From an uncultured Porphyromonadaceae bacterium (lineage in GTDB: Bacteria > Bacteroidota > Bacteroidia > Bacteroidales > Muribaculaceae), in NCBI GenBank assembly GCA_947176755.1, contig CAMWRW010000003.1, positions 1-64,000 on the forward strand: a stretch of DNA of 64,000 nucleotides. The letters run 5' to 3'. The notes under the pieces were generated by a model, which was given only the letters and a program-made list of their open reading frames with translations, had not been told where the DNA came from and searched no databases. Shown here one piece after another: positions 2,962-43,186 of the stretch (within the stretch, counting starts at the first letter, position 1; each line of letters opens with the position of its first letter). A program made the position numbers and the translations under genes.

Positions 2962-3036
2962 CAAAAAAAAATTGATTGTCATCCCGACAACCAATCTTGC
3001 GTTAACCTTAAAATCTAATACCATGAAAAACTCGAT
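2962..3036 (-). ncRNA. Copy A of a dispersed short RNA transcription unit (conserved core + intrinsic terminator)
   Basis: Minus strand: TATATTTGC-ATCGA-GTTTTTCATGGTATTAGATTTTAAGGTTAACGCAA-GATTGGTTGTC-GGGAT-GACAATCAAT-TTTTTTTT. Nearly identical to copy B, related to C and D. Confidence 0.8.
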
Positions 3037-3045
3037 GCAAATATA
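3037..3045 (-). promoter_or_regulatory. -7 box TATATTTGC of RNA copy A
   Basis: Matches the TAnnTTTG Bacteroidetes -7 consensus; fixed spacing to RNA core. Confidence 0.7.
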
Positions 3046-3231
3046 GAGAATATATTTTAGAACAATGTTGTAAAACATATAAATCCTTTTAAATTTTAAC
3101 TTTTATTATGATTTAAGTTATATTTGACCGACTGCTTTAACATTTATTTTATACCTAAAACAAATTTACGATTCTATTTTGAAAATTCCGTCACGTTAGA
3201 TATTTTTGCAACGAAATAGAGCATTCGCTTT

Positions 3232-19195: not shown

Positions 19196-19246
19196 CAAGT
19201 TGTCGATTGCGACCCTTCCGGTGTGAATCACGCTTTGTAACAGGCA

Positions 19247-19320
19247 TAAAAAAAATTGATTGTCATCCCGACAACCAATCTTGCGTTAACCTTAAAATCT
19301 AATACCATGAAAAACTCAAT
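19247..19320 (-). ncRNA. Copy B of the dispersed short RNA transcription unit
   Basis: Minus strand: TAACTTTGC-ATTGA-GTTTTTCATGGTATTAGATTTTAAGGTTAACGCAA-GATTGGTTGTC-GGGAT-GACAATCAAT-TTTTTTTT. Confidence 0.8.
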
Positions 19321-19329
19321 GCAAAGTTA
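19321..19329 (-). promoter_or_regulatory. -7 box TAACTTTGC of RNA copy B
   Basis: Matches TAnnTTTG. Confidence 0.7.
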
Positions 19330-19564
19330 GTTATATTTTTTAAAACAATGTTATAAAACATATAAAATTCTTCGATTATTAACATTTATTAAACATAAAT
19401 TAGATGATTCGCACAATAATAAATCTATGTTAACAATAATAAGCTGTATTATTAAATTCTGTTAATAATTTGCACAGTAAGAAGAATCAGCATACCTTTG
19501 CACCGTTGCATTCCACTACAACACTACAACAATAACCGAATCACCACTTAAACCTATATTGACA

Positions 19565-40701: not shown

Positions 40702-40710
40702 TAACTTTGC
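40702..40710 (+). promoter_or_regulatory. -7 box TAACTTTGC of RNA copy C
   Basis: Matches TAnnTTTG. Confidence 0.65.
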
Positions 40711-40785
40711 AATGTGTTTTTCATAGAATTAAATTAAGATTAAGGTTTCAGTCTATCTCTTTGGGAAAAGAGATAGACTTTTTTA
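40711..40785 (+). ncRNA. Copy C of the dispersed short RNA transcription unit
   Basis: AATGT-GTTTTTCATAGAATTAAATTAAGATTAAGGTTTC-AGTCTATCTCTTT-GGGA-AAAGAGATAGACT-TTTTT; 13-bp perfect stem with GGGA loop. Confidence 0.75.
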
Positions 40786-40994
40786 TTATCCATATATCAC
40801 AAATTATCAACAGATTGATTAAGGTCCAAGCAAGCACCTCCATCCTTTTCCCGACCTTTGAAAAAGAAATTGACAGGGCAATCAAACCAAAAAAGTTTCA
40901 GCAATGTTATAAGGATAAACCGGCGGGTCGGCCGAGGCTGAGCCGCGGAATTGAATCAAAAATATCAAAACTATAACTATAAAAACACACTATC

Positions 40995-41585
40995 ATGGCA
41001 GATCAGCAGAAAAGTCTCGTAGGCACCCGCACGCAGGTGAACCTCGCTAATGCATATATGGCGGAATCAGCAGCTGTGACCCGTTACACATTCTTCGCTC
41101 AGGCCGCACAGAAAGAGAAATATTTCCAGTATGCAAACATTTTCCAGGAAACAGCCGATAATGAGTTGCATCACGCTAAAATCTTCCTCAAATATCTTAA
41201 TGAAGGCGGATGCACGACCGTTCCATTAGGCGTTGATGCCGGCGTGATCGGTTCGACTGCCGACAATCTGGCAGTTGCCGCTTCCGAAGAGGAACGCGAA
41301 GGTGTCGACCAGTACAAGGCTTCGGCAGCAGTGGCCCGCGAAGAAGGTTTCGATGAGATTGCCGACCGTTTCGAAGCAATCGCTACAATTGAAAACCACC
41401 ACAAAGAGCGTTTCGACAAGATGCGCTGGCGCATTGAGAATGACACTGTATGGAAATCCGACACCCCGATCAAATGGCAGTGTCTGGTCTGCGGTTATAT
41501 CTTCGAAGGCACCGAGCCTCCTCAGAAGTGTCCCGCCTGCTACCACCCCTATCAGCACTTTATGCGCGCTGAGGACAACGTTTAA
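40995..41585 (+). CDS. rbr: Rubrerythrin
   Basis: 196 aa; diiron domain ESAAVTRYTFFAQAAQKEKYFQYANIFQETADNELHHAK plus rubredoxin CLVCGYIFEG...CPACYHPY. Confidence 0.96.
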   Translation: MADQQKSLVGTRTQVNLANAYMAESAAVTRYTFFAQAAQKEKYFQYANIFQETADNELHHAKIFLKYLNEGGCTTVPLGVDAGVIGSTADNLAVAASEEEREGVDQYKASAAVAREEGFDEIADRFEAIATIENHHKERFDKMRWRIENDTVWKSDTPIKWQCLVCGYIFEGTEPPQKCPACYHPYQHFMRAEDNV

Positions 41586-41615
41586 AAATTCTGATACTAT
41601 TATAGACACACACTC

Positions 41616-41648
41616 AAGGCGTCGGGTTCTGTCCCGACGCCTTATTTT
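41616..41648 (+). terminator. Intrinsic terminator
   Basis: AAGGCGTCGGG-TTCTGT-CCCGACGCCTT-ATTTT. Confidence 0.75.
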
Positions 41649-41699
41649 GATATATAGCGAAGATTGCATAATTTTGCAGGCTTGCATAAATAACCAGAT

Positions 41700-42428
41700 A
41701 TGGCTCATGAAAAGATACGCGGCATCGTCACGGATGTAATCAAGCACTCCGACCGGCATGATGTGGTCAGGATTTATACACGCGAATTTGGCAATGTAGC
41801 TTTTCTCTCGGCTTCCGGTCAGGGAAAGAGCGGCCGACTGCGTGCGGCCCGCCTCCGCCCTCTTTCAGCAATAGAGGCCGAGGTTAATTTCCGGCCTAAC
41901 CGTGACCTCCAAATGCTCGGGGCATTCAATACGCTATCCCCATGGCGGGATATTTACTTTAACCCCGTGAAGTCGGCTGTTGCTATTTTCCTGAGCGAAT
42001 TTCTCAATGCGTTCCTGCGCCATTCGGAAGCTGACCCCCTCCAATGGGACTACATCTACCGTTCGCTCACAGTTTTCGATCTCTCGCGCCGGGGCACGGC
42101 GAATTTTCATATCGCTTTCCTCATCGGCTTCCTGCATTTCGCCGGGATTTTTCCCGATTTAACTGATGCCCGACCGGAATCCCTGTTCGATTTGCGCGCC
42201 GGCAGGCTCACTCCCCTCCCGCCGGGGCATGCCGACATTCTTTCTTCAGCCGACACGTCTTTCCTCCCCTTGCTTGGAAGAATGAACATGAGAAATTACC
42301 ATCTCTACCGTTTTTCAAGCTCTCAACGACGAAGGATTCTGGGGACTCTCCTGCGTTATTACTCCATCCATTATCCTGGAACGGGCTCCCTGAAATCGCC
42401 TGAAATACTTTCCGAACTGTTCGCGTGA
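41700..42428 (+). CDS. recO: DNA repair protein RecO
   Basis: EKIRGIVTDVIKHSDRHDVVRIYTREFGNVAFLSASG. Confidence 0.92.
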   Translation: MAHEKIRGIVTDVIKHSDRHDVVRIYTREFGNVAFLSASGQGKSGRLRAARLRPLSAIEAEVNFRPNRDLQMLGAFNTLSPWRDIYFNPVKSAVAIFLSEFLNAFLRHSEADPLQWDYIYRSLTVFDLSRRGTANFHIAFLIGFLHFAGIFPDLTDARPESLFDLRAGRLTPLPPGHADILSSADTSFLPLLGRMNMRNYHLYRFSSSQRRRILGTLLRYYSIHYPGTGSLKSPEILSELFA

Positions 42429-42654
42429 GTAGAGTGTCTGACAAGACAAAAAAATTTTTCAAAAAAATTTCCCCCTCTTAATCTGACATTTTGCTATCGC
42501 GGATATTGAGCAACCTGAGTCCGAACATACTTTTAGCAGCATTTTGTTATAAATAACCCTCAAATTTTGACAAAATGCAAGAATGCGACTATTAAACAAA
42601 TCAAATACTCCCGAAAAATCTTTAAAAAAATTTTTTCGTTACAAAAGTTTTTTA

Positions 42655-42663
42655 TAATTTTGC
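42655..42663 (+). promoter_or_regulatory. -7 box TAATTTTGC of RNA copy D
   Basis: Matches TAnnTTTG. Confidence 0.65.
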
Positions 42664-42737
42664 GACGTGTTTTTCATGGTATTAGATTTAAGGTTAGAGG
42701 ATTAATTGTCGGGAGACAATTAATCTTTTTATTTTTA
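42664..42737 (+). ncRNA. Copy D of the dispersed short RNA transcription unit
   Basis: GACGT-GTTTTTCATGGTATTAGATTTAAGGTTAGAG-GATTAATTGTC-GGGA-GACAATTAATC-TTTTTATTTTT; 11-bp perfect stem with GGGA loop. Confidence 0.8.
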
Positions 42738-43130: not shown

Positions 43131-43186
43131 AAATCAAGCCGGGCCTTTGAATCACAGATAGGATTCAAAGGCCCGGCTTGATTTTC
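43131..43186. terminator. Bidirectional intrinsic terminator
   Basis: AAATCAAGCCGGGCCTTTGAATC-ACAGATAG-GATTCAAAGGCCCGGCTTGATTTT. Confidence 0.8.

Follow-up and report, generated by a model that had tools for sequence, protein, structure and literature searches.

Four FopS-type small RNA genes with GNGA-capped terminator hairpins in a Muribaculaceae genome

FopS-type genes and their family

We identified four small RNA genes, copies A to D, in the window, by which we mean the whole 64-kb stretch of Muribaculaceae DNA analysed here (Table 1). With high probability these are FopS-type sRNA genes, each combining a -7 promoter box, a 5′ seed and a GNGA-capped terminator, in which the stem is selected for pairing and the seed for blocking translation. 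What we did not expect was that FopS is kept in every sampled Muribaculaceae genome, with an RbpB-class protein almost always absent. The genes are of an already known kind, the FopS sRNA family, to which the window copies add; the sequence-only reading of this DNA had missed the family, whose (RF04319) terminators its hairpins are.

Table 1 Features of the four FopS-type sRNA genes in the window
Feature	Position	Strand	Sequence or evidence
FopS sRNA copy A	2962..3033	(-)	Seed 5′ end at 3033; RF04319 76.7 bits, cut-off 56; fold
FopS sRNA copy B	19246..19317	(-)	RF04319 76.2 bits; fold
FopS-related sRNA copy C, GibS-like seed	40714..40788	(+)	RF04319 41.9 bits, below cut-off of 56
FopS sRNA copy D	42667..42733	(+)	RF04319 67.8 bits
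Copy A hairpin	2996-2971	(-)	GATTGGTTGTC / GGGAT / GACAATCAAT, then T8
Copy B hairpin	19280-19255	(-)	GATTGGTTGTC / GGGAT / GACAATCAAT, then T8
Copy C terminator hairpin	40750..40779	(+)	AGTCTATCTCTTT / GGGA / AAAGAGATAGACT, T run after; 13 bp; loop 40763-40766
Copy D terminator hairpin	42700..42725	(+)	GATTAATTGTC / GGGA / GACAATTAATC, T run after; loop 42711-42714
Copy A -7 promoter box	3038..3045	(-)	TATATTTG; sequence, fits TAnnTTTG
Copy B -7 promoter box	19322..19329	(-)	TAACTTTG; sequence
Copy C -7 promoter box	40702..40709	(+)	TAACTTTG; sequence
Copy D -7 promoter box	42655..42662	(+)	TAATTTTG; sequence
Inverted repeat, candidate operator of A	3065..3078	(-)	ATGTT-TTAC-AACAT; perfect match; ortholog enrichment
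Inverted repeat, candidate operator of B	19348..19361	(-)	ATGTT-TTAT-AACAT; perfect match; ortholog enrichment

FopS was published in 2025 from B. thetaiotaomicron, where 14 paralogs, FopS-01 to FopS-14, are bound by the RRM protein RbpB and block translation of SusC through pairing near the start codon (PMC11697453). The seed and the translation block were established there by in-line probing, compensatory mutation and in-vitro translation, expression was observed in Bacteroides, and the consensus structure was optimised with R-scape (PMC11697453). In the papers that could be searched, FopS had not been a subject of study in Muribaculaceae.

Copies A, B and D exceed the curated cut-off of the Rfam covariance model RF04319 (BTncRNA_FopS), while C falls under it (E 7.7e-5 in a genome-wide search, 3.2e-4 in a second search) and is a clear relative of FopS and not a member. 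The genome of 2.27 Mb thus holds several FopS paralogs, three above the cut-off together with C; these are its only convincing copies, and they share one contig, that of the window. Other RNA families of Rfam gave no match above cut-off in the window. The four copies span 40 kb of the one contig (window 2962-42733), and in a related genome (G009) the A, C and D types likewise lie on a single contig. Copy C is flanked by a DUF2851 gene on one side and a rubrerythrin gene on the other, and D sits downstream of recO (all by Pfam); in many genomes of the genus C and D are 0.3-3 kb apart, and their relative orientation changes.

The window copies match the 5′ seed of B. thetaiotaomicron FopS nearly letter for letter and share its single-stranded 5′ end, Rho-independent terminator, sigma-ABfr -7 box and multiple paralogs per genome. 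They differ in that the genome belongs to Muribaculaceae and carries about 4 copies against 12-15, that A and B begin GAG and have a seed with one additional T (GATTTTAAGG), and that RbpB is missing and SusC targeting is not evident. Copy C carries the bases of the GibS sRNA (RF04182) at seed positions 12 and 27 (CAUAG, AAGAUUAA), but assignment to GibS was rejected: C scores 32 bits where the cut-off is 115, stops at its hairpin at 40779, is ~70 nt long in place of ~145 and has no R2 seed region. The 5′ core of BTnc231 (RF04180) is also related to the window copies, although these score 28.8-29.2 bits, far under its cut-off of 80.4.

In the explanation that we favour, each gene would be ~65-75 nt long, with a TAnnTTTG box for the main sigma factor of the phylum, a ~30-nt 5′ seed left unpaired and, behind it, an intrinsic terminator. 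Selection on the terminator would be for pairing, for transcription stop and for a closed 3′ end, which would let the letters of the stem drift while its pairing and its loop stay. The working part would be the constant 5′ end; its complement resembles a translation start (AAATCTAATACC-ATG-AAAAAC), and the seed is therefore predicted to bind mRNAs around their start codons, thereby preventing translation. Family membership, architecture, conservation, loop constancy and ortholog covariation are observed here; transcription of the window copies, their pairing with mRNA and repression we infer from the B. thetaiotaomicron work. Against the explanation count the sub-cut-off score of C, SusC starts that are not outstanding and the missing published partner RbpB.

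Terminator stems and covariation

The hairpins reported from the letters at 40750-42725 are present at exactly those positions, both on direct reading and in folds. Single-strand folds gave a hairpin and an unpaired 5′ half for every copy (z = -2.1 for A and B, -2.9 for C and -4.4 for D), and a terminator scan of the window picked up both the C and the D hairpin. The description of the hairpins as RNA terminators is supported. At window 43131-43184, between a small ORF and a minus-strand queuosine biosynthesis gene, two perfectly inverted 23-bp arms flank a spacer of 8 nt, probably forming a two-way terminator.

Within the window, the proposed compensation of a GG-to-AA change between A/B and D holds for pair 7 of the stem, with the loop end as pair 1, a true double change from G-C to A-U. 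The remaining changes are one-sided G-U adjustments, at pair 6 (G-U to A-U) and pair 11 (G-U to G-C), and the A-U at pair 6 of the window's D is a lone variant, since most D orthologs carry G-U or G-C there. The stem of C differs in sequence from those of A and D with no traceable substitutions. Pairing in stems of differing sequence, as had been described, is indeed kept across relatives, but in the window the A and B stems are identical and that of C is unrelated.

To assess covariation, copies were taken from genomes of the genus and from other genera of Muribaculaceae, aligned with the loop as anchor, and compared with a null model in which columns evolve independently on a FastTree tree with column rates kept, an R-scape-like test and not R-scape itself. 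In C orthologs (21 distinct) two stem pairs covary (E = 0.01) and nearly all pairs are standard; a rerun with slightly altered columns again gave two stem pairs (E = 0 and 0.01). Under the same tree-aware null no stem pair was significant in A orthologs (27 distinct) or D orthologs (14 distinct), the latter showing one significant non-stem pair. Merging A, C and D (62 sequences) yielded no significant stem pair, because each difference between paralogs amounts to about one event, and only three significant pairs, which lie within the 5′ core and mark the paralog split. The whole set of 120 distinct copies gave two significant pairs, both in the stem (E = 0.03). Standard pairs make up 96.5% in these 120 copies against a null mean of 54% and a null maximum of 75%, a figure that is inflated because the search model contains the hairpin and the chosen register favours pairing. 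Covariation above background is therefore found among many copies, in C orthologs and in the whole set, whereas the comparison of A/B, C and D from which it was first proposed is not significant.

Members of the genus repeat the same three types, with a seed nearly unchanged and a variable stem. The linear core that had been called constant is not fully so, as the core of C differs and is GibS-like. The suggestion that each paralog gains a sequence of its own from the variable stem finds no support: A equals B, A-type stems hardly differ within the genus and free variation is confined to C.

The GNGA loop and generic terminators

The stems may equally well be generic intrinsic terminators, with covariation and a loop such as any terminator has and nothing specific to this RNA; we give this reading an even chance. 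Pairing is kept while stems are freely replaced, in C and in the phage copies, as terminators would show, and GNRA caps also occur on other terminators (9/66). The loop fits this account less well. A GNGA or GNGAN cap is found in 100 of 112 distinct FopS hairpins, compared with 7 of 66 terminator-like hairpins of other kinds in the sequences examined; of the 12 remaining FopS hairpins, 11 carry this loop too but are read as triloops. Fisher's test, with 99/112 as the input, gave 3e-26, a value that is only indicative because the copies are not independent. The second loop base takes all four values and the third is G in every copy, although GNAA would belong to the GNRA class just as well; in many copies a fifth base follows, usually T or C, and pairing between it and the first G could reduce the loop to three bases. 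In phage copies GNGA is retained on unrelated stems. The generic account is thus largely right for the stem alone and weaker for the loop. The conserved loop of the sequence-only reading belongs to the GNRA class and is far more constant than the stems, but its constant element is GNGA, not GGGA.

Promoter box and candidate operator

The -7 boxes upstream of A, B, C and D alike follow TAnnTTTG, the consensus of sigma-ABfr (PMC7366714). Across the relatives the box lies directly upstream of 50/53 A, 18/25 C, 31/31 D and 95/95 other copies; a sigma-70-type promoter scan carries no information in Bacteroidota.

A perfect ATGTT-N4-AACAT repeat (14 bp) has only two matches in the window, upstream of A and B. 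With at most one mismatch the repeat accompanies 41 of 53 A-type copies (0.8 in shuffles) and 40 of 105 other copies (1.2 in shuffles), and none of 25 C or 31 D copies. Between the repeat and the -7 box lie 18-19 bp in the majority of A-type copies; elsewhere the usual spacing is 8-9 bp, and four copies have 41 bp. These spacings differ by about one and three helical turns. Among named records it is perfect in Bacteroides finegoldii and B. ovatus and has one mismatch in Parabacteroides distasonis. From its sequence and placement we infer a candidate operator for some regulator protein. A literature search with the operator strings gave no match in a relevant paper; the PM2 motif of GibS has been described as near-palindromic, with elements at -10 and -30, and may be the same element. 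The FopS paper proposes an unknown FopS regulator (PMC11697453), for which the phased inverted repeat is a candidate binding site.

Candidate targets

Seed complementarity at start regions was compared with a background of 315 starts (mean -12.7 kcal/mol, sd 3.45) that includes imperfect start calls. None of the three full SusC genes of the window genome stands out against it, with D-seed pairing of -17.2, -9.0 and -11.7 kcal/mol, one of them moderate. The strongest seed match found by search is the glyA (SHMT) start at -26.9 kcal/mol (z -6.6), followed by the leader of a transporter with a CitMHS domain (Pfam) at -26.2 kcal/mol, which we would call NhaD-like by its sequence. These matches raise the possibility that FopS has been re-aimed in Muribaculaceae, its main targets being housekeeping starts (glyA and the CitMHS/NhaD-type transporter) and not SusC. 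The glyA starts of 22 genus loci average -17.8 kcal/mol against -12.7 for the background, imperfect start calls included. We consider such re-aiming unlikely: both sites were chosen by search in the window genome, their pairing is not conserved across all species, and AT-rich start regions resemble the seed complement anyway. The glyA pairing is accordingly a lead only, suggested by sequence. The glyA start region at L064:1490-1520 shows strong D-seed complementarity, and related motifs recur in several genus members.

By our count, a search of 41 genomes with a D-seed pattern appeared to give about twice as many non-sRNA matches as a backward-read control, an excess that proves nothing because the pattern includes the start-codon context. 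The C-seed pattern returned mostly the sRNAs themselves.

Distribution and the missing RRM partner

RF04319 matches occur in all 119 sampled Muribaculaceae genomes, from 30 genera, and exceed the cut-off in 113. RRM_1, the domain of RbpB, was found by profile search in two of the 119 and in none of the 92 of high quality, nor in the window genome or 41 genus genomes; Bacteroides controls were positive. With RRM proteins missing, Muribaculaceae must run FopS without RbpB, the partner described in B. thetaiotaomicron (PMC11697453), although an RbpB-type partner too divergent for the Pfam model may be present. The two RRM_1-bearing genomes (G091 and G068, loci L206 and L207) come from two separate genera; their FopS matches number 8 and 10, which places both near the top of the family.

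Earlier work had presented FopS and RbpB as the two halves of a circuit conserved in Bacteroidaceae. That FopS is present in every sampled genome of another major gut family, and nearly always in the absence of RbpB, uncouples the RNA from the protein and makes Muribaculaceae natural hosts for testing RbpB-free action of FopS. We can envisage, tentatively and as a somewhat unlikely extension, an RbpB-independent FopS network in this family, driven in part by a regulator acting on ATGTT-N4-AACAT, with another protein recognising the GNGA cap and with targets away from SusC.

That the copies are mobile or repeat-family DNA (REP/MITE-like) with hairpins formed by chance is highly improbable and is rejected on their promoter-seed-terminator architecture: it would suit the several copies per genome, the changes of position and direction from species to species, with C and D 0.3-3 kb from each other in either tandem or opposed arrangement, and the existence of phage copies, but the order of the parts is fixed, the Rfam model is matched, flanks differ, copy number stays near 4 across the genus and FopS is expressed in Bacteroides (PMC11697453). 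The earlier contention of selection on structure and not a simple DNA repeat stands as to the repeat, while the window copies alone are insufficient for covariation. The exact A/B sequence also occurs in Muribaculaceae MAGs and in 'Candidatus Amulumruptor caecigallinarius'.

Copies in phages

The FopS core is present on eight IMG/VR contigs, where the stems are unrelated and the loops are GTGA or GCGA and, by our reading, GAGA in L339. Phages are known to use SusC-type proteins as receptors; a phage-borne FopS could conceivably shut out rivals, which we offer as an idea only. Two of the viral copies (L338:3818-3922 and L339:1140-1169) have no obvious promoter of their own. Of these two, one comes after an ORF stop codon, and the other begins 3 nt past a tRNA-Arg gene, a distance at which its 5′ end could arise by tRNA processing.
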